DNA of 60,558 nt. Source: Clostridia bacterium. GTDB lineage: Bacteria > Bacillota > Clostridia > Christensenellales > Aristaeellaceae. Below are positions 27,260 to 51,473 of this stretch, piece by piece. The DNA is taken from assembly GCA_017541205.1 (NCBI GenBank), contig JAFXZO010000111.1, forward strand, positions 1 to 60,558. Reading direction: 5' to 3'. Under the pieces are notes generated by a model. It was not told the origin of the DNA. It saw only the letters and a program-made list of their open reading frames with translations, and did not search any database. Each line of letters begins with the position of its first letter. Position 1 is the first letter of the stretch. A program made the translations under genes and the position numbers.

Positions 27260-27266
27260 ATGAAAC

Positions 27267-27310
27267 AAAGGGCTGCCTCCTTTTTCCGGGAGACAGCCCC
27301 TGCTTTTTGC
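27267..27310. terminator. Terminator between convergent genes
   Basis: Arms GGGCTGCCTCC / GGGAGACAGCCC with a T-rich tail on the plus strand. It also serves the minus-strand peptidase ending at 27317. Confidence 0.8.
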
Positions 27311-27316
27311 TTTCGC

Positions 27317-30187
27317 TTATTTTCCGATCACCGGCGTCCAATAAGCCTGGTTGTAGATATCGGTGAACCGATAGGTGACCAGCGTTTTGGTTTTTTCGGG
27401 CAGGTAGACGTTCGATACCTGGATCGCGCCGCTGACGGTGATGGGATTGCCGAACTCATAGCTCGCGGTATAGTTCTGGTCATAGTCATACAGGTCGGCC
27501 AGGAGCTGGATGGTATCGCCGTCCTGGATTTCGTCCAGGGCTTTGGCGACGGTTTCGGTTTCGTCGGTGTACACGTTCCGTGCGCCCGCCACATAGCCGT
27601 CTTCATTCTCGCTGTCGAACACGATCAGCAGATCGACCCGAACGCCGTTGAGCAGGGCGGGCACGCGGCCGGTAATGATCCACTTGCCATCCTCCAGATA
27701 CTGGGTTGTCTCGTGGTAATACGGCGCGACCTGTCCGTTCAGGGCCAGCCAGGTGCCGTCCATATCGGCGGTCATGCGGCCTTCCTTGTCCAGGGTAAAC
27801 AGGTTATCCAGGCCCAGGTCTACATAGCCCTTGCCGTTATCATAGAATACGTTCTGATCCACGCCTGTGACCAGCGCCCACTGCTCGGGGCTCAGGGCCA
27901 TCATCCAGGAGCCGTCCTGCTGCTGGGTAAAGACGAGCTTGGAGGTATCCAGGATATTGGCCGTCAGGTATTCCACGGTTTCTGCGTCGGAGAGGCTGCG
28001 GCCGGAGAGGAAGCTGATATTGCTGCTGTCCAGGCCGGAAACATTGCTGTATCCGCCGCCCAGGAAGGCGGACAGAAGATCGGAAATCATATCGCCGGAG
28101 GAAGCGCTGCTGGAAGTGGAAGCCCCAAGCCCGCCAAAGAGCGAAGGCATAGGCGAGGAAGCGCCGCCGGTCGCGGCCTGGCCGCTCACTTCCATGCCGG
28201 CGAAATCGCGGATCGCCTGGGCATAGCTGTCGTCCATGCCGATGGCTTCATAGGTCTTCACCGCCTTATCCACGTTGGAAACCTTCTTGTAGGGGAAGTA
28301 AATGGAAAGGCCGTGCGCGTCGGAAATGTTGTTGATGCGGTTGTATTTGACCGCTTCCTTAAGGACCTTGGCCAGGGCGTTGCTTTCCGTGGTGTTCAGG
28401 TTCAGGCACAGGTCGGTCAAATCCACCTGGTCGATCTTGTTGGAGGAAGCGAATTCGCGGGTGCCGTTGCGGGCGGTGGATACGGCCTTGTATTCCTTGT
28501 TCGCAAGCAGGCTGGATACGGATTTGGAGAAGGCCGTCAGCTTATCCGGCACGGTGTTGGAAAGCTCCGCCAGGTCGATCATGGACAGGGTGGTTTGCTG
28601 GCCGCGGCAAGAGGTGTTGCACTGCGTCACAAAATCGTCGATGATCATTTTGCCGATGTCCAGGGTCTCCATGGAGGTATTCTTGCCCCAGGCGGTGAGC
28701 CAGTTGGTATAATACCAGCCGATGCCGGGCTCGGTTTCCTCGGAGGCGATCAGGTAATCGGCATAATTGCTGGCCATCAGCGCGTTTTCGACGGTGGCCA
28801 TCAGGCAGGTGTCAAAGCCGATGAAATCAAACTTGACGCCGCCGTTTTTGAACGCGGTGTTGAGGCCCGCCAGGCTCATGGAGCCGGAAGACTGGTTGCG
28901 TTCGTCGTAGCCGTAACCGCTCACCGAGCCGGAGCCGTGGTCCCACAGGATCAAGGCATAGCGGTTGGCCTTGAAATTCTTGGCGCAGTATTTAATAAAG
29001 GAAGCGAGGGTTTCCGGATTGGTCATGGAAGCGGTGCCCGCGTTATCGTTGAGGCAGGAGAGCTTTCCGTTGCTGATCTGCCAGATCTGGTTGCATTTGC
29101 TGGAAATGTATTTGTTCTGCCAGGTTTTGGCGCCGCCGGTGAACACGATCAGGTTGATATCGCCGGTGGTAGCGTTGATCATTTCCTGCAGGTCCTTGGT
29201 TGCCATCGCGCTGCGGGATTCCAGGTCCGCGCCGCACATATACACCATCAGCGTTACCTTGTCCTTGCCGTTGCCGAGGATGTTGGTATATTTCGCGCGG
29301 CTTCCTTCGGCCACGCTGCGGTTCAGCACGCCGGAAAGGACGTTGGACAGGACGGAGGAAGCGGACGTCTGCGAGGAGGAAGCGGCGGAGGAAGAGGAAG
29401 TCGCATACCCCGTCTGGCTGCCAAACCAGCTGCCGCCCAGAATGGAATCAAGAGAGGATTCGCTGTATCCGCCAAACAGGCTGCTCAGCAAGGACGAGCC
29501 GGAATCGCCGTCCGCGCCAAGCAAGCCGCTCACCAGGGAACTGGTATCCGTTCCGGCAGAAGTGGAAGTATCGCCGCCGAGCAAACCGCTCAAAAGGGAT
29601 CCGCTGTTTTGTGTGCTGGTGCTGCTCGAAGAACTACTCGAATCGGAGCCGCCGCCAAACAAGCCGCTTAAGCCGCCGCCACCGCCCAGGAGCAGTACAG
29701 CCGCGACGACCAGGATGATCAGCATGGAGCCTTTGCCGCCGGCCCGGGTCGGTTGTCCGGCGGAGGAAGCGCGCTGCTGCTGTTGCTGGCCGGCTGAAGG
29801 ACGGCTTGCGCTTTGCTGCTGGGACGTCTTCTGCGCGGAAGCGCTTTGCTGGGGCCTGCCGCTGTTGCCAAGAAACGGATTGGGCTGCGCCGTGCCGCCG
29901 CCGACGGGCCTGTGCTGCTGCGATTGGGCGCTGTGCAGATTGCCGGTATTCATGCTGCCGCCGGCCTGGCCGGAGACGTTTTTCGGCCGTGAAATGGGGC
30001 TGCTTTGCGGAATGCCGGACGCCCCGCGGTCAGACGCGCCGGGAATAGATTGGGCTTTCCGATCCTGATACCCGTCCGGGCTGCCGACCGGGCCGCCCGT
30101 CTGCGCCTCCTGGTGGGTTTGCATGCTGCTTTCATCCGCAGTGCCGCTTACCTTCTTTTTCCGGTTCAAGGGGCCGTTTCCCTGCAT
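27317..30187 (-). CDS. Membrane-anchored clostripain-like (C11) cysteine peptidase
   Basis: The protein is 956 residues. A Gln/Ser/Pro-rich cytosolic N-terminus (1-150) leads to one membrane helix (about 155-168) and a low-complexity Gly/Ser linker (170-290) with repeats of the type SGLLGGD. The C11 domain then starts (about 308 onward). Catalytic His is H417 in LILWDHGSG and Cys is C461 in GFDTCLMA. The last ~250 residues form beta-rich exterior domains. Such proteins cleave after Arg or Lys outside the cell. A weak zinc-ribbon is not seen at the N-terminus. AAGAAGGGA lies 7 bases before the ATG. Confidence 0.88.
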   Translation of the reverse strand: MQGNGPLNRKKKVSGTADESSMQTHQEAQTGGPVGSPDGYQDRKAQSIPGASDRGASGIPQSSPISRPKNVSGQAGGSMNTGNLHSAQSQQHRPVGGGTAQPNPFLGNSGRPQQSASAQKTSQQQSASRPSAGQQQQQRASSAGQPTRAGGKGSMLIILVVAAVLLLGGGGGLSGLFGGGSDSSSSSSSTSTQNSGSLLSGLLGGDTSTSAGTDTSSLVSGLLGADGDSGSSLLSSLFGGYSESSLDSILGGSWFGSQTGYATSSSSAASSSQTSASSVLSNVLSGVLNRSVAEGSRAKYTNILGNGKDKVTLMVYMCGADLESRSAMATKDLQEMINATTGDINLIVFTGGAKTWQNKYISSKCNQIWQISNGKLSCLNDNAGTASMTNPETLASFIKYCAKNFKANRYALILWDHGSGSVSGYGYDERNQSSGSMSLAGLNTAFKNGGVKFDFIGFDTCLMATVENALMASNYADYLIASEETEPGIGWYYTNWLTAWGKNTSMETLDIGKMIIDDFVTQCNTSCRGQQTTLSMIDLAELSNTVPDKLTAFSKSVSSLLANKEYKAVSTARNGTREFASSNKIDQVDLTDLCLNLNTTESNALAKVLKEAVKYNRINNISDAHGLSIYFPYKKVSNVDKAVKTYEAIGMDDSYAQAIRDFAGMEVSGQAATGGASSPMPSLFGGLGASTSSSASSGDMISDLLSAFLGGGYSNVSGLDSSNISFLSGRSLSDAETVEYLTANILDTSKLVFTQQQDGSWMMALSPEQWALVTGVDQNVFYDNGKGYVDLGLDNLFTLDKEGRMTADMDGTWLALNGQVAPYYHETTQYLEDGKWIITGRVPALLNGVRVDLLIVFDSENEDGYVAGARNVYTDETETVAKALDEIQDGDTIQLLADLYDYDQNYTASYEFGNPITVSGAIQVSNVYLPEKTKTLVTYRFTDIYNQAYWTPVIGK

Positions 30188-34062: not shown

Positions 34063-34139
34063 TGAATCCTTGAGCGCCCTTTCTTTTTTGCGGAAGAAGG
34101 GGCATTTTTTCATCGTGAGCATGGAAGGAAGACAAAGCG

Positions 34140-37100
34140 ATGACGTGGATAGCCGATCTGCATATTCATTCCAAATATTCCCGTGCGACCAGCCGCGATT
34201 GCGACGCGCCGCACCTGGCCTTGTGGGGGCAAAGAAAAGGGATCCAATTGATCGGCACCGGCGATTTCACGCATCCGAAATGGCGAAAAGAGCTAAAGGA
34301 GATGCTCCGCGAGGAAGACGAGGGCATATACAGCCTGAAAGCGGAATACCGCCTGCCGTCCGAAATGCCGGAGGATACTTTGCCGCGCTTTATCGTGACC
34401 GGCGAAATCAGCACGATATACAAAAAGGACGGAAAAACCCGAAAGGTGCACCATGTGGCGGTGCTGCCCAGCCTGGAAGCGGCCGAAAAGCTTTCCCACC
34501 GCCTGGAAGCCATTGGCAATATTCACAGCGACGGCAGGCCGATCCTCGGGCTGGACAGCCGCGATCTGTTGGAAATCATTCTGGAGAGCTGCCCAAACGC
34601 CATTTATTTTCCCGCGCATATCTGGACGCCGCATTTTTCCCTGTTCGGCGCGTTTTCCGGCTTCAATACCGTCGAAGAATGCTTTGGCGATATGACGCCT
34701 TACGTGCACGCCATGGAAACGGGCTTATCTTCCGATCCGCCCATGAACCGCCTGCTGTCGATGCTGGATTCGCATGAGCTCGTATCCAATTCGGACGCGC
34801 ATTCGCCGGCGAAGCTCGGCCGGGAAGCCAATCTGCTCTCCTGCCAAATGCGCTTTGAGGATGTGAAGGAAGCGCTGGATACCGGCAAGGGTCTGGACGG
34901 CACGGTGGAGTTTTATCCCGAGGAAGGGAAATACCATTTGGACGGGCACAGGCTGTGCCATTGCAGGCTTCTCCCCGGGGAAACCGCGCAGTACGAAGGA
35001 ATATGCCCCGTATGCGGCAAGAAGATCACCATTGGGGTTTTGAACCGTGTGCTTGCTTTGGCGGATCGAAAAACGCCGCAGCATATGGACAAGCCCTTTG
35101 AAAGCCTGATTCCGCTGCCCGAATTGATCGGGGAAACGCTGGGCGTCAGCGCGGAGAGTAAAAAGGCGCAGCAGGCATATTTCGATTTACTGAAAAACCT
35201 GGGGCCGGAATTCGCGATCCTGCGGGAAATCCCGATTCCCGACATCGAAAAGGCTGGAGGATACTTGCTGTGCGAGGCGATCCGCCGCATGCGAATCGGC
35301 CGGGTGATCCGCCAGGGCGGATATGACGGCGAATACGGCGTGATCCGGGTATTTGAGCCCGGCGAAAAAGAAACGCTGCTGGGGCAGATCACCCTGCTGG
35401 CCGGCCTTCCGATAACAGAACAAACGAAAAACAATAAGGAAGGAAAAAAGACCGGAAAGCAGGAAAGCAGATCGGACGCTAAGATAGATTTGATCCACGC
35501 GCCCGTGTTCCAGCCGAATATCGAGCAGGAAACAGCCATTAAAACACAGAGCAGGACCGTCGCCGTCATTGCGGGCCCGGGCACCGGGAAAACGGGCACC
35601 CTGGTTCAACGGATCAGGCATCTGATCGAAACAGGCGTTCCGCCGCAGGAAATAACCGCCGTCACCTTCACCCGCCAGGCGGCGCAGGAAATGACGGAAA
35701 GGCTGGAAGCTGCGCTCGGAAAAAAGGCGATCCGCGGCCTGACGGTTGGCACGTTCCACGGCATCTGCCTTTCCATGATCGAGCAAAAGCCCTTGATCGA
35801 GCGGGCCGACGCGCTGAATATCGTCGAAGAAATCCTGCGGGAGCGCAAAGAAGCAATTTCTCCCGCAAGCGCCCTTTCCATGATTTCCATGCGGAACAAT
35901 GCGCTTGAAGCGCCCAGCCTTCCCGCCGGCGTATTTGAAGCGTATCATGAGCGCCTTTCCGAAAAAGGCCTGCGCGATCTGGACGATATCCTCCTGGACG
36001 CGCTGAGCATGCCGGAGCGACAAAAAAGGATGTTCCGCCATGTCCTGGTGGATGAATACCAGGATATCAACGCGCTTCAAAGGCAATTGGTGGAAAAATG
36101 GAGCAGGGAAGGCACGCTCTTTGTGATCGGCGATCCGGATCAATCCATCTACGGCTTTCGCGGCGCGGATGCAGCATGCTTCCATGCCCTGAAAGCCTCG
36201 CGCCCGGATACGGAAGAAATCATACTCCGGCAGAATTACCGTTCTTCGCCGGAGATCCTGCGCGCCGCGCTTTCCGTGATCGGGAAGAATCCCGGCGGGA
36301 AACGCAGCCTTGCGGCCGTTTGCCCGTCCTCTGGGCCCGTGCGCCTGATAAAAACGGAGGATGAGCTTGCGCAGCACATCTGGATCGCCAAGGAAATCTC
36401 GAACCTGACCGGCGGCATCGACATGCTGGAAGCCAGGGAAGGGGAACGCGCAGCATACGCGTTTTCCGAAATCGCCGTGCTCTGCCGTACCCACCGCCAG
36501 CTGGAAAGCGTGGAAAAGTGTCTCAGGCACGACGCCATCCCCTGCGTGGTCTCCGGGCGCGGCACGTTCCTCGAATCAGAAAAGAATCAAGCGATCCTCG
36601 CGTTCTTTTCGCTTCTGCTGGATCCCGGGCTGCCCCTGGCCGCCGATCGGGCGCTGCGAGGCCTATGGCATTGCCCGGATGGGCTGATCCAGCGGGCGGA
36701 AGCCGCCTTAAAGCAGGAGGATATCGAAAGCGAAGCGTTTGAAAACGCGTTATCTTCGTTTGACGCGCTGTCTCCCTTTGTGCGCGCGGCTCGCGTCCTC
36801 AAGCCAAGAATGCAAAAAGACCCTCCCCGCACGCTGATCGATCTGCTGCTTAAGGAAACCGGCCTCAACGGAAAGGATATAGAGCAATTGCAGAACACGG
36901 CGGTGTTCTTTGATTCCATGACCGATCTGCTCCGTACGCTCCAGACGGGCGAGGAATGCGACATCAGGCGCCTGAGCGGGGGAAAGGCGTCCGGCGCGGT
37001 GCGGCTGATGACGCTGCACGGGGCTAAGGGCCTGGAGTTTCCGGTGGTCATGATCGCTGGAATTGACGAGGGAATGCTGCCGCTGCAAAATACGAAGGAA

Positions 37101-37295
37101 GCGGCGGACGAGGAAGAGGAACGCAGGCTCTTTTTCGTCGGCATGACGCGCGCAAAAAAGGAATTGATCCTGCTGACCAGTGAAGGAAAGCCTTCCAAAT
37201 TCACCCAGGATCTGCCCAAGGATGTGAAAATCGAAAAAGCGAAACGCTTCGTATCCAGACCGTCGTTCCGGCAAGTCAGCCTATTTGATGTTTGA
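34140..37295 (+). CDS. Endonuclease Q-UvrD helicase fusion
   Basis: The 1051-residue protein joins two repair enzymes. Residues ~1-400 form an EndoQ-type PHP nuclease: DLHIHSKYS (6-14), GTGDFTH, PAHIWTPHFSLFG, SNSDAHSP (216-223), and a zinc site (C273, C275, C289, C292). A linker rich in Lys/Asn (about 425-450) leads to a UvrD/PcrA-type SF1A helicase. Its motifs are Walker A GPGTGKT (479-485), VDEYQD, GDPDQSIYGFRG, QNYRSS and late VGMTRAKKEL. EndoQ nicks DNA 5' of deaminated bases; a coupled helicase could unwind from the nick. Tandem activity is inferred. The RBS GGAAGG lies 9 bases upstream. Confidence 0.9.
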   Translation: MTWIADLHIHSKYSRATSRDCDAPHLALWGQRKGIQLIGTGDFTHPKWRKELKEMLREEDEGIYSLKAEYRLPSEMPEDTLPRFIVTGEISTIYKKDGKTRKVHHVAVLPSLEAAEKLSHRLEAIGNIHSDGRPILGLDSRDLLEIILESCPNAIYFPAHIWTPHFSLFGAFSGFNTVEECFGDMTPYVHAMETGLSSDPPMNRLLSMLDSHELVSNSDAHSPAKLGREANLLSCQMRFEDVKEALDTGKGLDGTVEFYPEEGKYHLDGHRLCHCRLLPGETAQYEGICPVCGKKITIGVLNRVLALADRKTPQHMDKPFESLIPLPELIGETLGVSAESKKAQQAYFDLLKNLGPEFAILREIPIPDIEKAGGYLLCEAIRRMRIGRVIRQGGYDGEYGVIRVFEPGEKETLLGQITLLAGLPITEQTKNNKEGKKTGKQESRSDAKIDLIHAPVFQPNIEQETAIKTQSRTVAVIAGPGTGKTGTLVQRIRHLIETGVPPQEITAVTFTRQAAQEMTERLEAALGKKAIRGLTVGTFHGICLSMIEQKPLIERADALNIVEEILRERKEAISPASALSMISMRNNALEAPSLPAGVFEAYHERLSEKGLRDLDDILLDALSMPERQKRMFRHVLVDEYQDINALQRQLVEKWSREGTLFVIGDPDQSIYGFRGADAACFHALKASRPDTEEIILRQNYRSSPEILRAALSVIGKNPGGKRSLAAVCPSSGPVRLIKTEDELAQHIWIAKEISNLTGGIDMLEAREGERAAYAFSEIAVLCRTHRQLESVEKCLRHDAIPCVVSGRGTFLESEKNQAILAFFSLLLDPGLPLAADRALRGLWHCPDGLIQRAEAALKQEDIESEAFENALSSFDALSPFVRAARVLKPRMQKDPPRTLIDLLLKETGLNGKDIEQLQNTAVFFDSMTDLLRTLQTGEECDIRRLSGGKASGAVRLMTLHGAKGLEFPVVMIAGIDEGMLPLQNTKEAADEEEERRLFFVGMTRAKKELILLTSEGKPSKFTQDLPKDVKIEKAKRFVSRPSFRQVSLFDV

Positions 37296-43581: not shown

Positions 43582-43703
43582 AGCTGTAATCACGGCGGCG
43601 CCTGGGTTTGCGGCCCTCTCCGGGCTTCAAAACGCTGACGTTTTACGCAAGCATTCTTTTGCTTACGATTCGCTGTGAATTCTATTTTTTCTGTGAGGTT
43701 TTT

Positions 43704-44804
43704 ATGGCTGACAGCCTGAATTATCATGCGCAGGCAACGATCAAACGCATGAACCGACTGCGCGCGCTGGAAAAAGAATTGCCCCTCGTCTGCACGGATT
43801 TTTTTCGCTCCATCTCCCAAACCACCAGCTCCCTCACGCGTCTTGCCTACGCCTATGACTTTCGCCTGTTTTTCCAATACCTGACGCGGGAAAACCCGTT
43901 TTTTGCGGATACAGAGCCGCGGTTCATGACGGATAAGCACCTGCAAATGATCCAGAAACGCGATATCGATGGATTCCAAGAATATTTGATGCAATATTAT
44001 AATAATAATGAAGAAACAGGCGAAACCTCCGTCGTTCAGAACCACGAGCTTGGGATCATGCGAAAGCTGTGCTCCTTGCGCTCCTTGTTCGATTATCTCT
44101 ATAAAAACGGGCATATCGACGGCAACATCGCCACGCTCGTGGAATTGCCCAAGATCCACGATAAACCCATCCTGCGCCTGGAACGCGACGAAATGCAGAA
44201 GATGCTGGACGCCGTCTCTTCCGGCGAGGGGCTCACCCCGGCGCAGCAGCGGTACCTGAATTATACCCGGGTGCGCGATACGGCCATCTTGCTTTTGTTC
44301 CTGGGCACAGGCATCCGCGTGAGCGAATGCGTCGGGCTCAACATGGACGATCTGGATTTTGAGCTGAACGCTTTCCTTGTCACGCGCAAAGGCGGCGATC
44401 AGAGCATCCTGTATTTCCCGGATCAGGTGGCGGATGCGCTGAAAGCGTATCTTGTGCAGCGCAAGGAAATCGTGCCGGTCAACGACCAGGATAAGGACGC
44501 CCTCTTTCTATCCCTGCAAAAAAAGCGCATGACACAGCGGGCCATCGAAAATATGGTAAAAAAATACGCGCTGATCGCCGCGCCGCTCAAAAAACGCATC
44601 AGCCCGCATAAGCTCCGCAGCACCTTCGGCACCAATCTGTACCAGGAAACAGGCGATATTTATCTGGTTGCGGACGTGCTCGGGCATTCCGACGTGAACA
44701 CCACGCGCCGCCATTACGCCGCCATGTCCGACGCCAATAAGCGCAAGGCGTCCCGCATGGTGCCGCTGCCGGTTACCGAGAATCCGCCTGAAAGCAAGGA
44801 ATGA
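43704..44804 (+). CDS. XerC/D-like tyrosine recombinase
   Basis: The 366-residue protein has an N-terminal SAM-like core-binding domain (about 15-150) and a C-terminal catalytic domain. The catalytic residues are present: Arg in GTGIRVSE, Lys in TRKGG, HKLR (His/Arg) in ISPHKLRSTFGT, His in LGHSDVNTT and Tyr in RRHYAAM. It may resolve chromosome dimers or act on a local site, though no dif-like sequence was recognised nearby. No phage or transposon gene flanks it. It has its own promoter, with a palindrome just upstream. Confidence 0.88.
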   Translation: MADSLNYHAQATIKRMNRLRALEKELPLVCTDFFRSISQTTSSLTRLAYAYDFRLFFQYLTRENPFFADTEPRFMTDKHLQMIQKRDIDGFQEYLMQYYNNNEETGETSVVQNHELGIMRKLCSLRSLFDYLYKNGHIDGNIATLVELPKIHDKPILRLERDEMQKMLDAVSSGEGLTPAQQRYLNYTRVRDTAILLLFLGTGIRVSECVGLNMDDLDFELNAFLVTRKGGDQSILYFPDQVADALKAYLVQRKEIVPVNDQDKDALFLSLQKKRMTQRAIENMVKKYALIAAPLKKRISPHKLRSTFGTNLYQETGDIYLVADVLGHSDVNTTRRHYAAMSDANKRKASRMVPLPVTENPPESKE

Positions 44805-44827
44805 TCGGGCCCGTTCAGGCGATCATA

Positions 44828-45004
44828 TCACAGTGTCTTCGCATTTTCGTCCAGCCGGACTTCATCAATCAGGATGGAGCGGTATTCCTGATCGCCGTTG
44901 ACGCACTTCATGCAGTTATCGCAGATTTTGTTCGGATCAAGATCGCACCGGTCGCATTCCCCGCATTCGATGCATTCCCTGTCATACAATACACATTTCT
45001 TCAT
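44828..45004 (-). CDS. Small Cys-rich metal-binding-like protein
   Basis: The 58-residue protein has eight cysteines in two clusters, CxxCxxCxxC (C11, C14, C17, C20) and CxxCxxC (C28, C31, C34), plus C4. The spacing suggests an iron-sulfur or zinc centre. The C-terminal half (YRSILIDEVRLDENAKTL) has no cysteine. It is divergent from lexA, and the LexA box at 45054-45067 lies between the two starts, so SOS control of both is possible. The start ATG 45004 is preceded by a weak GGGGCAAAGG. Function is unknown. Confidence 0.65.
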   Translation of the reverse strand: MKKCVLYDRECIECGECDRCDLDPNKICDNCMKCVNGDQEYRSILIDEVRLDENAKTL

Positions 45005-45049
45005 ACGCCTTTGCCCCGCTTTCTCAGGAAATCTTGTTGGATTTGGGTA

Positions 45050-45078
45050 TTGCCAAACACACGTTTGCATGATATAAT
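45050..45078 (+). promoter_or_regulatory. lexA promoter with LexA box
   Basis: -35 TTGCCA and -10 TATAAT are spaced 17. The LexA box CAAACACACGTTTG (45054-45067) overlaps the -35 and spacer and matches 13 of 14 positions of the Bacillus consensus CGAACRNRYGTTYG. This indicates autorepression. Confidence 0.85.
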
Positions 45079-45116
45079 TTTTCTGTAAAATCTTATCAGA
45101 AAGACGGTGCTGCGCG

Positions 45117-45743
45117 ATGCCCAGGCGGCCCAACGGCGACACACAACAACGCATCCTTGATTATATCGAAAAATACATCGATGTCAATGGGTATCCGCCC
45201 TCGGTGCGCGAAATCGGCCAGGCGGTGGATTTGAAGTCTACCTCCACGGTGCATGGGCACCTGAACCGGCTGGAAAAAAAGGGGCTGCTGCACCGGGAAG
45301 CCATGAAGCCGCGCACCATCGACGTCAAAAGAGAGGATAAGCCCCAGATGGTGAAGCTGCCGCTGCTTGGCAGGGTCGCCGCCGGCGTCCCGATCCTGGC
45401 GGAAGAGGACGCGGAGGGCTATATGCAGCTGCCCGATTCCATGGTCGGCCAGGGCGAGCACTTTATCCTTGAAATCAGGGGCGACAGCATGATCACCGCC
45501 GGCATCATGAACGGCGATTTCGTGGTGGTCAAACGGCAGCAGACCGCCCAAAACGGCGAGATCGTGATCGCCATGATCGATGATGAGGCCACCTGCAAAC
45601 GATATTTTAAGGAGCCGGACAGGATCCGCCTGCAGCCTGAAAACCCGCGCATGCGGCCTTTATACACCCGCTCCGTCACCATTCTGGGCAAGGTCGTCGC
45701 CGTCTATCGGGTGTATAACGGCAATTACAAAACCAGCCACTGA
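45117..45743 (+). CDS. lexA: LexA SOS repressor
   Basis: The 208-residue protein has a winged-helix DNA-binding domain (GYPPSVREIGQAVDLKSTSTVHGHLNRLEKKG). The S24 self-cleavage domain follows, with the scissile Ala89-Gly90 in GRVAAGVP, catalytic Ser124 in RGDSM and Lys161 in ATCKRYF, 37 apart as in E. coli LexA. It represses SOS genes until RecA filaments trigger cleavage. Its promoter carries a LexA box. Confidence 0.97.
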   Translation: MPRRPNGDTQQRILDYIEKYIDVNGYPPSVREIGQAVDLKSTSTVHGHLNRLEKKGLLHREAMKPRTIDVKREDKPQMVKLPLLGRVAAGVPILAEEDAEGYMQLPDSMVGQGEHFILEIRGDSMITAGIMNGDFVVVKRQQTAQNGEIVIAMIDDEATCKRYFKEPDRIRLQPENPRMRPLYTRSVTILGKVVAVYRVYNGNYKTSH

Positions 45744-48905: not shown

Positions 48906-51473
48906 ATGAAGCGCGCACTGATCCGATTCGTTTCCGTGGTCCTGATCCTGATCCTGATAACGCCTGCCGGCAGGGCTTCTGAAAAGCTCAAGCAGGGGGA
49001 TTCGGGAAGCACGGTGCTGCAAATGCAGTTAGCGCTGCAATCGCTTGGCTATTCTATCAAGACGGATGGGAAATACGGAAAGGACACCGTGGCCGTCGTC
49101 AAGGAATTCCAGCGGGATTATAAGCTGACTGCCGACGGCGTGGCGGGCAGCAACACGCTGTCGCTGCTTTCTATCCTGGCCCCGGCCTATTTTTCGGGTA
49201 CAAGTTCTTCTGCCCCCTCCCCTACGCCTGTTCCGACGAATGCAAACGGCATTACTTCGGCCCGGGTGATCGGCGGCTCGCTGAACCTGAGAACCGGGGC
49301 TGCCGAAACCGCCTCCATTGTGACCGAAATTCCAAACGGCGCGCAGGTCACGGTCGTTTTCCGCGGGGATATGTGGTCTTCGGTGATTTATAAAGGCATG
49401 GCCGGATACGTCATGACGGCTTATCTTTCCTTCGACAATTCGCCTGTTCCGCAGCCGACCGCCGCGATCCTCCTTCCGACGGCGGCTCCGACGGTCCTTC
49501 TTCCAAATACCGGCAATGTGCGGGCGATGGTGCTCACCACGGGCGGCAGCCTGAACCTCCGCCAAAGCCCGAACAGCACTTCCAAGATCCTTACGACCAT
49601 CCCTTATGGCACATGGCTCGCCGTTACCGCGCGCGGCGCCGAATGGTGCCAGGTGCAATACAACGGGATCGTCGGGTATGTGATGAGCAAGTTTCTGTCC
49701 TTTGACGCCTCTTCGGTCAATACTCCCGTCCCGACTGCGACGCCCTTCGTGCTTCCAACCCAAGCGCCTTATTCCCAGACCCAGGAAACGGCGATCGTGA
49801 CCACCACGGGCGGCAGCCTCAACCTGCGGCAGAGCGCTGATGCGAACGCCAAAGTCATTGCCGCCATTCCAAACGGCACCGCCATCCAGGTGCTGTCCCG
49901 GGGAACGATTTGGTGTTCGGTGCTGTACATGGGCACGTACGGCTATGTCATGACCTCGTTCCTGCGCTTTCCTGGTTCTTTGGCAACGCTGGTTCCGACC
50001 GCGACGCCGACTTATCCGCCCGTGCAGGGCAATCCGCTGATCGCGTACGTGACCACAAGCGGCGGCTCGCTGAACCTAAGGGAAGAAGCGCAGAATAACG
50101 CGCGCATTCTTTTCAGGATCCCCAACGGCTCGCAGCTGATCGTGACCCAGCAGGGCAGCGTGTGGTGCGCCGTACAGTATCAAAGCATGAGCGGCTATGT
50201 CATGACCTCGTTTTTGAGGTTCGCCCCAAACAATGCGAATCCTTCCACCCCAACGCCCGCGCCGACGCCGCAAAGCAATACGCCCGTCGGCACAGCCCTG
50301 GTGACCACCTCAGGCGGCACCCTGAACCTCCGTTCGGAAGCTTCCTCGAACGCAAAGGTTTTGCTTGCCATGCCAAACGCGTCTTCCGTCACCGTCTATG
50401 CAAGGGGCGAAACCTGGAGCCAGGTTTCCTACAACGGCACGAAAGGCTATTGCCTGACCCAATACTTAACCTTCCTGACCGGCAGCGTACCCGTGCAGAA
50501 AGCCGATTCGGAGGATGACGACCCGTCCAAATATACCCGTACCCTGAAAAAAGGCATGACCGGGAGCGACGTCACCTGGGTGCAGAACCGGCTGATCGAA
50601 TTGGGCTATTCTCTTACGCTGACGCATCTTTATGACGACGCGACGTTCGCCGCCGTGAAGGCGTTCCAGACGCAAAACGGCCTCACCGCGGACGGCCTCG
50701 CAGGCGCGCAGACCTTTGCCATCCTCAAAAGCGACAGTGCGCGAAAGGCCGAGGACGCCAAGCTGAGCTATTCCACGCTCCGCATCGACGATACCGGCGA
50801 CGGCGTCAGGCAGATCCAGAAGGATCTGAAAGCGCTTGGTTATCCGGTCACGGTGAGCGGCACATACGATGAGAGTACCCATAACGCGATCGTGGCGTTC
50901 CAGCAGCGAAACAGCCTTGTCATCAGCGGCATCGCCGATTCCCTGACCCGGCAAACCCTGCATTCCGGCAATGGCAAACCCTATTCCACACCGGTGGAAA
51001 GCCTTCCCGCGAACGAAGGCTGGATCCAAGGGCCGAGCGTTTCCCAGCTCAAGCTTTTGCATTGGGTGAACGATATCAAGCCCACCGTGAAAGCCGGGCA
51101 GACCTTTACCGTGTTTGATCCCAATTCCAATCTGAGCTGGAAGCTCGTGTTTTATTCCCTTGGCCGTCACGCGGACAGTCAGCCGGCCTCCTGGCGCGAT
51201 ACGCAGATCATGAACCGCGCCTTTGGCTCTACCTCCTGGACGATCCATCCGGTGTATGTGCAATTGCCAAGCGGACAATGGACGCTCGCCACCATGCACA
51301 ATCGCCCGCATCTTTACGGCTCCATTATGGATAACGGCTTTGGCGGGCACCTGTGCGTGCATTTCCTGCGCGACATGGCGGAAGCGAAGAAGAACGATCC
51401 CAATTACGGCGTCAACAACCAGGTAACGCTCCGAAACGCCTGGAAAGCCCTGACAGGCGAAACGGTCAATTGA
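48906..51473 (+). CDS. Secreted cell-wall protein with five SH3b and three peptidoglycan-binding repeats
   Basis: The 855-residue product starts with a signal peptide (MKRALIRFVSVVLILILITPAGRAS). In order it carries a PG_binding_1 repeat (about 28-92), five SH3b domains (near 117-175, 202-267, 293-357, 377-440, 460-523) separated by PT-rich linkers, and two more PG_binding_1 repeats (about 547-610, 625-687). A C-terminal domain (about 707-855) is of unknown type and contains TMHNRPHLYGSIMDNGFGGH and LCVHFLRD. It probably binds and may cleave peptidoglycan. ATG 48906 has AAGGAGG 11 bases upstream; the open frame starts earlier, at 48789. Confidence 0.85.
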   Translation: MKRALIRFVSVVLILILITPAGRASEKLKQGDSGSTVLQMQLALQSLGYSIKTDGKYGKDTVAVVKEFQRDYKLTADGVAGSNTLSLLSILAPAYFSGTSSSAPSPTPVPTNANGITSARVIGGSLNLRTGAAETASIVTEIPNGAQVTVVFRGDMWSSVIYKGMAGYVMTAYLSFDNSPVPQPTAAILLPTAAPTVLLPNTGNVRAMVLTTGGSLNLRQSPNSTSKILTTIPYGTWLAVTARGAEWCQVQYNGIVGYVMSKFLSFDASSVNTPVPTATPFVLPTQAPYSQTQETAIVTTTGGSLNLRQSADANAKVIAAIPNGTAIQVLSRGTIWCSVLYMGTYGYVMTSFLRFPGSLATLVPTATPTYPPVQGNPLIAYVTTSGGSLNLREEAQNNARILFRIPNGSQLIVTQQGSVWCAVQYQSMSGYVMTSFLRFAPNNANPSTPTPAPTPQSNTPVGTALVTTSGGTLNLRSEASSNAKVLLAMPNASSVTVYARGETWSQVSYNGTKGYCLTQYLTFLTGSVPVQKADSEDDDPSKYTRTLKKGMTGSDVTWVQNRLIELGYSLTLTHLYDDATFAAVKAFQTQNGLTADGLAGAQTFAILKSDSARKAEDAKLSYSTLRIDDTGDGVRQIQKDLKALGYPVTVSGTYDESTHNAIVAFQQRNSLVISGIADSLTRQTLHSGNGKPYSTPVESLPANEGWIQGPSVSQLKLLHWVNDIKPTVKAGQTFTVFDPNSNLSWKLVFYSLGRHADSQPASWRDTQIMNRAFGSTSWTIHPVYVQLPSGQWTLATMHNRPHLYGSIMDNGFGGHLCVHFLRDMAEAKKNDPNYGVNNQVTLRNAWKALTGETVN

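Follow-up and report, generated by a model that had tools for sequence, protein, structure and literature searches.

The gene at positions 34140-37295 (+ strand) of a Clostridia bacterium contig (JAFXZO010000111.1, assembly GCA_017541205.1; the whole stretch of 60,558 nucleotides is called the window) joins an endonuclease Q (EndoQ) to a UvrD-type helicase. Is this joining real, and why should a nuclease of this kind be attached to a DNA motor? An initial annotation, made from the letters of the sequence, had proposed a self-contained unit that nicks and then unwinds DNA as an alternative to uracil-DNA glycosylase (UDG). The analysis presented here partly supports that interpretation. On balance we favour, from sequence comparisons, the view that this EndoQ belongs to a distinct bacterial clade, is joined to its partner helicase and works on the sliding clamp, where it would nick 5' of a deaminated base and peel off the strand.

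The open frame runs uninterrupted from ATG to TGA, encodes 1051 amino acids and has no internal stop codon. Residues 1-405 (34140-35354) comprise the PHP nuclease together with the zinc and C-terminal subdomains of EndoQ. The NCBIfam model TIGR00375 matches residues 5-402 over nearly the whole model (model positions 2-374; 152 bits, 2.9e-44), and PfuEndoQ (PDB 5zb8) aligns with residues 5-406 (Pfu 5-384, E 3.6e-48), the zinc region included. Residues 458-1030 (35511-37229) form a UvrD/PcrA-type superfamily 1A (SF1A) helicase; PF00580 and PF13361 match residues 460-1014, as do the PcrA/Rep/UvrD models, and the structures 1pjr and 9dci are matched as well. Between the domain matches lies a linker (residues 421-457; 35400-35510) in which the alignment shows no conserved columns. 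The genome of the window is a metagenome-assembled genome (MAG; 84.9% complete, 121 contigs) with one TIGR00375 match. Since 51 further complete proteins share the architecture, an assembly error or a chance joining is excluded, and the presence of EndoQ and helicase in one frame, as initially annotated, is confirmed.

Whether the EndoQ half is still equipped for cutting was assessed in an alignment of 100 rows, consisting of 56 fusions, 12 separate-gene partners, 29 stand-alone Clostridial EndoQs, two fusion-type orphans and PfuEndoQ. In PfuEndoQ the residues E76, H84 and H139 are each essential, and H139, G169 and S171 make up the base pocket (PMC8307549). All of these positions are occupied identically in 100 of 100 rows: E89 corresponds to the catalytic E76 (34398-34412), H104 to H84 (34443-34460), H160 to H139, which serves metal binding and base discrimination (34611-34631), and G195 and S197 to G169 and S171 (34716-34739). 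H8 and H10 of the PHP motif DLHIHSKYS (34155-34181) are likewise found in every row; in the second PHP motif, SNSDAHSP (34785-34808), D219 is present in 99 rows and H221 in all 100. The EndoQ metal ligands, whose lack would have refuted the initial annotation, are in place. With its metal and pocket residues intact, the fusion protein would be predicted to nick 5' of uracil or hypoxanthine.

The zinc site had been described as a four-cysteine site. Residues of the zinc-site type are indeed there (H270, C273, C289 and C292; 34947-35015), and each of the four is found in 56 of 56 fusion rows, but by sequence alignment the putative site of the fusion clade is His-Cys3 (HCCC) as opposed to CCCC in PfuEndoQ. 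The position of Pfu C249 is a histidine in all 56 fusions and in 11 of the 12 separate-gene rows (H270), and a cysteine in all 29 stand-alone rows and in PfuEndoQ. C275 of the window's protein lies outside the majority consensus of the fusion clade. Variation is also seen among the stand-alone EndoQs, 19 of 29 of which lack the fourth zinc cysteine. Two further residues, H45 (34272-34274; 55 of 56 fusion rows) and C181 (34680-34682; 56 of 56), are conserved in the clade and absent from the 29 stand-alone rows; they possibly constitute an extra set of metal ligands.

The helicase half retains Walker A (AGPGTGKT, residues 478-485; 35571-35594) and Walker B/motif II (VDEYQDIN, residues 637-644; 36048-36071), both identified from the alignment consensus and by motif reading. 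Residues 664-675, 956-968 and 999-1007 are what we take to be motifs III, V and VI. Motifs I-VI are present, in agreement with the intact early and late motifs of the initial annotation. The fusion scores 257.7 bits with the PcrA equivalog model TIGR01073 and does not reach its curated cut-off of 911.2 bits; a canonical PcrA (924.5 bits) is encoded separately in the same genome. The fused motor is therefore a paralogue and not the housekeeping helicase.

The protein ends in RQVSLFDV, and residues 1045-1049 of this C-terminus (QVSLF; 37272-37286) correspond to the bacterial clamp-binding consensus QL[S/D]LF, more generally QxxLF (PMC12309361). The initial annotation missed this peptide and also a degenerate copy of the EndoQ C-terminal clamp motif at the junction of the halves, where the EndoQ would have ended (QITLL, residues 416-420; 35385-35399). 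For counting, a loose motif was defined as Q, any two residues, one of LMIF and one of FLYWI within the last 15 residues; duplicates and fusions cut at the 3' end were left out. The loose motif is present at the C-terminus of all 52 complete fusions (39 with exact QxxLF) and of 14 of 14 fusions that were located in the window's class from EndoQ alone (8 exact). In the 12 cases where EndoQ and helicase are separate neighbouring genes it terminates both partners (12 of 12 EndoQs, 9 exact; 12 of 12 helicases, 11 exact), and all five lone helicases of the fusion clade have it in the exact form. The loose motif is missing from the last 15 residues of all 30 Clostridial stand-alone EndoQs compared (those with the highest scores among 33 in the class) and of all 30 other UvrD-like helicases. 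As to the background, 99 of 3622 15-residue segments elsewhere in the fusions match. Shuffling the C-termini leaves 2.2 matches in 52, and among other frames of at least 250 amino acids in the loci, many of which are not genes, 10 of 567 match. Since the counts are not independent, it is the contrast between partners and non-partners that makes the argument. At the junction the loose motif is found in 33 and the exact one in 18 of 52 fusions.

Of 56 complete Nitrospirota EndoQs located from EndoQ alone, 42 bear the loose motif; the other 14 all lack a helicase within 1.5 kb. The fusion-type orphan EndoQs L120 and L122 lack the clamp motif. PCNA binds archaeal EndoQ by way of a C-terminal PCNA-interacting protein (PIP) box and stimulates it, and beta-clamp motifs at the C-terminus of bacterial EndoQ homologues have already been remarked on (PMC4858679). 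A clamp motif on EndoQ is thus not new; on the helicase, the motif that the helicase itself bears and the fusion, the accessible excerpts of the literature are silent. We conclude that the C-terminal peptide probably docks the protein on the DnaN sliding clamp. Because of this peptide and the junction copy, it is doubtful that the unit is self-contained; it probably works on the sliding clamp together with a polymerase.

How widespread is the association of the two enzymes? Altogether 52 complete fusions (about ten phyla by record placement), 12 neighbour pairs and five genomes with the two genes apart were collected. In the search of the Clostridia suggested by the initial annotation, 73 of 391 genomes of the window's class gave any TIGR00375 match: 33 stand-alone EndoQs, 16 fusions (one cut by a contig end), two fusion-type EndoQs without helicase, one fragmented gene and 21 weak matches only (at most 26 bits). 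The fusions were also examined for their helicase half. Among 247 Spirochaetota genomes 44 had a match, 30 of them in frames of at least 980 amino acids, most being judged on frame length. A broad contig scan with the whole fusion as query, of which the best 80 loci were considered, yielded complete fusions in Bacillota, Spirochaetota, Thermodesulfobacteriota, Myxococcota, Bacteroidota, Chloroflexota, Planctomycetota, Zixiibacteriota, Latescibacterota and KSB1 and in one MAG titled Proteobacteria; in Calditrichota a fusion frame is cut at the contig end. Nearly all carriers are MAGs, so that single phylum placements may be wrong, the breadth being less in doubt. In a Clostridial relative (L048:5895-9215) the fusion is represented by two overlapping frames of 537 and 627 amino acids, due to a frameshift or an assembly error.

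The 12 neighbour pairs lie on one strand in Omnitrophota, Nitrospirota and two 'deltaproteobacterial' loci, and the spacing of their stop-to-stop frames ranges from -82 to +886 nt. Five helicases of the clade have no adjoining EndoQ in the DNA examined, and all five genomes encode an EndoQ elsewhere, whereas no EndoQ turned up in four genomes with related helicases that lack the motif. L096, a sixth lone helicase bearing the motif, is cut at its start, and its genome yielded no EndoQ. The initial annotation had counted separate genes in other strains against the fusion. Neighbouring genes of this kind do exist in other phyla, but they favour a joint function; the same partners are met with fused, adjacent or apart within one genome.

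The clades of the two partners correspond. In the EndoQ tree the 70 partner rows form one clade (SH-like approximate likelihood ratio test, SH-aLRT, 99) against 30 stand-alone rows including PfuEndoQ; in the helicase tree the fused, adjacent and apart helicases together form one clade of 70 (SH-aLRT 99) outside 30 other UvrD-like helicases. Rows of a single phylum mostly cluster together in both. The EndoQ tree omits the duplicates L001, L139, L141, L142 and L143, the contig-end locus L115, L075, L076 and rows below 330 amino acids, and keeps 29 of the 30 stand-alone loci. The helicase tree omits the same duplicates, L115, L144, the contig-end loci L052, L057, L058 and L072, the interrupted L048 and L076 and rows below 400 amino acids, and counts L096, whose start is cut off and which shows no EndoQ, as a fusion. 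Loci L145-L217 are in neither tree. A single clade of fusions in the helicase tree was rejected by the approximately unbiased (AU) test (p-AU 1.5e-8) for a group that is defined by gene architecture, the test being run after the tree had been seen. Fusion or splitting therefore happened more than once; one fusion with later splits and several fusions both remain.

We considered the alternative that the helicase is an accessory motor for replication or for conflicts with transcription, and that EndoQ rides along as both bind the clamp, with no coupled reaction. The separate and orphan states, and the clamp-type motif that each partner bears when separate, would fit such an arrangement. The pairing is recurrent, however, and as the fusions are not one clade it has either been fused repeatedly or a working fusion has been split repeatedly with the genes staying neighbours. 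We regard this alternative as improbable.

As a second alternative, the system might defend against phages whose DNA contains uracil or is otherwise modified, much as Gabija and similar helicase-nuclease pairs act against phages. In PADLOC the helicase half fits GajB best (254 bits when taken by itself, 35430-37292; 251 bits with the whole fusion protein, via the helicase half), and according to a review bacterial EndoQ may join antiviral defence (PMC8307549). However, the PcrA model scores as well as GajB, the EndoQ half gives no PADLOC match at E 0.01, and among the scanned neighbours there is no GajA-like gene and none that suggests a defence island. The EndoQ half gave no match among phage records at 1e-5, the plasmid search turned up no place with 80% coverage of the fusion, and none of the 80 viral-contig matches retained (out of 507; the seeds were helicase peptides) extends to the EndoQ half. 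The grouping of same-phylum rows in both trees also speaks against defence, which we consider very improbable. A defence island or mobile carriage is unsupported by the neighbours and by the PADLOC, phage, plasmid and viral-contig searches. The GajB-like score of a helicase half without a nearby GajA-like gene is a possible source of false Gabija calls.

Returning to the clamp-bound nuclease and motor, we propose the following course of events. The C-terminal QxxLF-type peptide, which is observed, would tether the protein to the DnaN clamp. The EndoQ half would then flip out a uracil, hypoxanthine, xanthine or abasic residue and cut the bond 5' of the lesion, as published for the archaeal and Bacillus enzymes whose residues it retains. 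An EndoQ nick leaves an extendable 3'-OH, and UvrD/PcrA-type motors move 3' to 5'. Situated on the intact strand, the helicase half would unwind away from the nick in the direction of polymerase extension and lift the damaged strand as a 5' flap. On that strand a 3' to 5' motor moves the same way as a polymerase, and it would therefore open the duplex ahead of the repair polymerase. A polymerase, a flap nuclease or single-stranded DNA exonuclease, and a ligase would complete the repair. In the archaeal model the EndoQ cut 5' of the lesion is followed by strand displacement by PolB and by a flap nuclease (PMC4858679); here the helicase would provide the displacement given to PolB. The initially proposed order, nicking before unwinding, agrees with this course, but the motor must load on the uncut strand.

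More broadly, and with less confidence, EndoQ and a dedicated UvrD-like motor, each with a clamp-type peptide and fused or paired in about a dozen phyla, may as a conserved bacterial excision-repair machine nick and peel the new strand behind the fork, thereby coupling the removal of deaminated or misincorporated bases to the clamp without glycosylase, apurinic/apyrimidinic (AP) endonuclease or UvrABC. A related but different explanation is that the clamp-held enzyme acts mainly on dUMP or other non-standard residues inserted by the polymerase, and that the helicase opens the new strand from this nick, which would serve mismatch correction as strand signal and excision start. It would account for the clamp-type motifs on both partners and for UDG-superfamily genes already being there for ordinary deamination, and newly synthesised DNA has been suggested in a review as a possible location of archaeal EndoQ (PMC7690668). 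The scanned neighbours, however, are mixed and mostly not repair genes, no search having been aimed at a MutS/MutL link. We consider this explanation unlikely.

Several observations weigh against a clamp-bound unit of EndoQ and helicase. The 152 bits of the fusion miss the curated cut-off of TIGR00375 (326.6 bits; NCBI, hypothetical equivalog), which was reached in none of the 391 genomes of the window's class and in two of 14 control genomes. The loose motif was defined with the C-termini already in view, and the rows share ancestry, so that the counts are not independent trials; exact QxxLF is found in 39 rather than all of the 52 fusions, and 19 of them lack the junction copy, which has mostly disappeared in Treponema. 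Adjacency is over-represented among the loci obtained with the whole-fusion query, which comprise 37 of the 52 fusions and every one of the 12 pairs. When EndoQ alone served as the start in Nitrospirota, 14 of 57 EndoQ genes had the helicase in their vicinity (within 1.5 kb for 12, at 1574 nt for L182 and overlapping for L203) and 43 did not, three of these for lack of room, the locus ending at most 0.9 kb from the EndoQ gene. This survey covers 57 of 63 EndoQ genomes and omits G430 and G432 (corresponding to L077 and L079) and the partial matches G706, G724, G741 and G746. At L155 and L189 a UvrD-like frame lies 2.7-3.5 kb downstream, and in this phylum score alone could not separate the clade helicase from other UvrD-like helicases. 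Ten EndoQ-only loci without adjacent helicase were found in Spirochaetota, eight of another type (29-33% identity) and two, L207 and L208, of the fusion type by identity. Together with L120 and L122 of the window's class there are thus four fusion-type EndoQs outside Nitrospirota without an adjoining helicase, and the nuclease can therefore do without it.

Finally, UDG-superfamily genes (PF03167) are found in 63 of 67 carrier genomes, a set that includes the orphan genomes G243 and G261 and excludes those of L052, L054, L057, L058, L072 and L076. The notion of a system standing in for UDG is rejected on these grounds. The window's genome has two such genes side by side (G000:C69:26682-27827), and similar tandem pairs occur, for example, in G072, G261 and G325. 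In the comparison with family-1 ung that the initial annotation had suggested, ung matches strongly in five and weakly in one of the class's 16 fusion genomes, and 218 of 391 genomes of the whole class are over the cut-off; kinship and genome completeness confound this difference too much for it to be interpreted. EndoV (PF04493) is nearly absent from the class, with 5 positive genomes among 391 and no fusion genome among these, which makes the idea of a compensation for missing EndoV uninformative.

The surroundings of the gene were also inspected. An NFACT gene and two frames that match nothing in Pfam lie upstream; on the downstream side are genes of the serC, serA and glutamine synthetase types together with a cellulase and an integrase. 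A conserved repair operon was rejected, as the scanned neighbours vary between lineages. An intrinsic-terminator-like hairpin with a 12-pair stem and a T-run (34076-34103, + strand) is situated between the preceding 72-amino-acid frame and the fusion gene; the region has five such sites as opposed to 5.7 in shuffles, and the one before the fusion gene has the longest stem. A phage-type integrase gene and then lexA are found at 43608-45743, the integrase about 6 kb downstream of the fusion gene, and lexA, as annotated, at 45117-45743. The annotated lack of a LexA box before the fusion gene was borne out too: the window contains a single exact match to GAACNNNNGTTC, at 50324, a long way from the gene and at chance level. 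SOS control was accordingly rejected, there being no exact LexA-type box near the gene. At 27320-30187 (- strand) a clostripain-family peptidase of 956 amino acids is encoded; the overlying + frame at 27260-29671 has no Pfam match and is probably spurious. In a Clostridiales relative, a gene for an OGG-type 8-oxoguanine glycosylase (L034:9201-9983) begins 50 nt 3' of the fusion gene; tblastn found no similar gene in the other loci gathered by then.

How does the fusion relate to known systems? Archaeal EndoQ (PfuEndoQ, TkoEndoQ) with PCNA resembles it in nuclease family, in catalytic and pocket residues and in the C-terminal clamp peptide, which is a PIP box there and QxxLF in the fusion. It differs in the first zinc ligand, Cys instead of His, and in lacking H45 and C181, and the accessible excerpts of the literature mention no helicase partner. 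Stand-alone bacterial EndoQ, described in papers for Bacillus, belongs to the same nuclease family; the 30 Clostridial copies show 25-29% identity, have no helicase in frame and no C-terminal clamp motif, and fall on the opposite side of the tree. PcrA, UvrD and Rep share the SF1A core and motifs I-VI, but the fusion helicases form a separate clade; PcrA-type proteins end in a Tudor-like region where the fusion has its clamp-type peptide. Gabija (GajA/GajB), AddAB/RecBCD and DNA2/Bad likewise combine a UvrD-like or other motor with a nuclease, but these nucleases are of the OLD/Toprim or RecB type and not PHP/EndoQ. EndoMS/NucS provides a precedent, being an endonuclease that a C-terminal peptide holds on the clamp, a PIP in archaea and a DnaN motif in Actinobacteria (PMC8228993); unlike the fusion it has an unrelated nuclease domain, a mismatch target and no fused helicase.

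No paper on an EndoQ-helicase fusion was found among the open-licence literature searched, and a description elsewhere is possible. One paper includes a figure on the domain layout of bacterial EndoQ homologues from Bacillus and Desulfovibrio (PMC4357722). A widespread fusion without such a paper fits the initial guess that proteins of this kind exist without having been studied. Annotation via the helicase half only, as generic UvrD or GajB-like, would conceal the EndoQ-helicase system.

EndoQ has been studied mainly as an archaeal enzyme, and its downstream steps have been proposed rather than shown. The motor and the clamp-type peptides on bacterial EndoQ suggest what the next step may be, and the fusion offers a single protein for testing it. 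If the proposal is true, many uncultured bacteria and gut Clostridia would have an excision route tied to replication beside uracil glycosylase.

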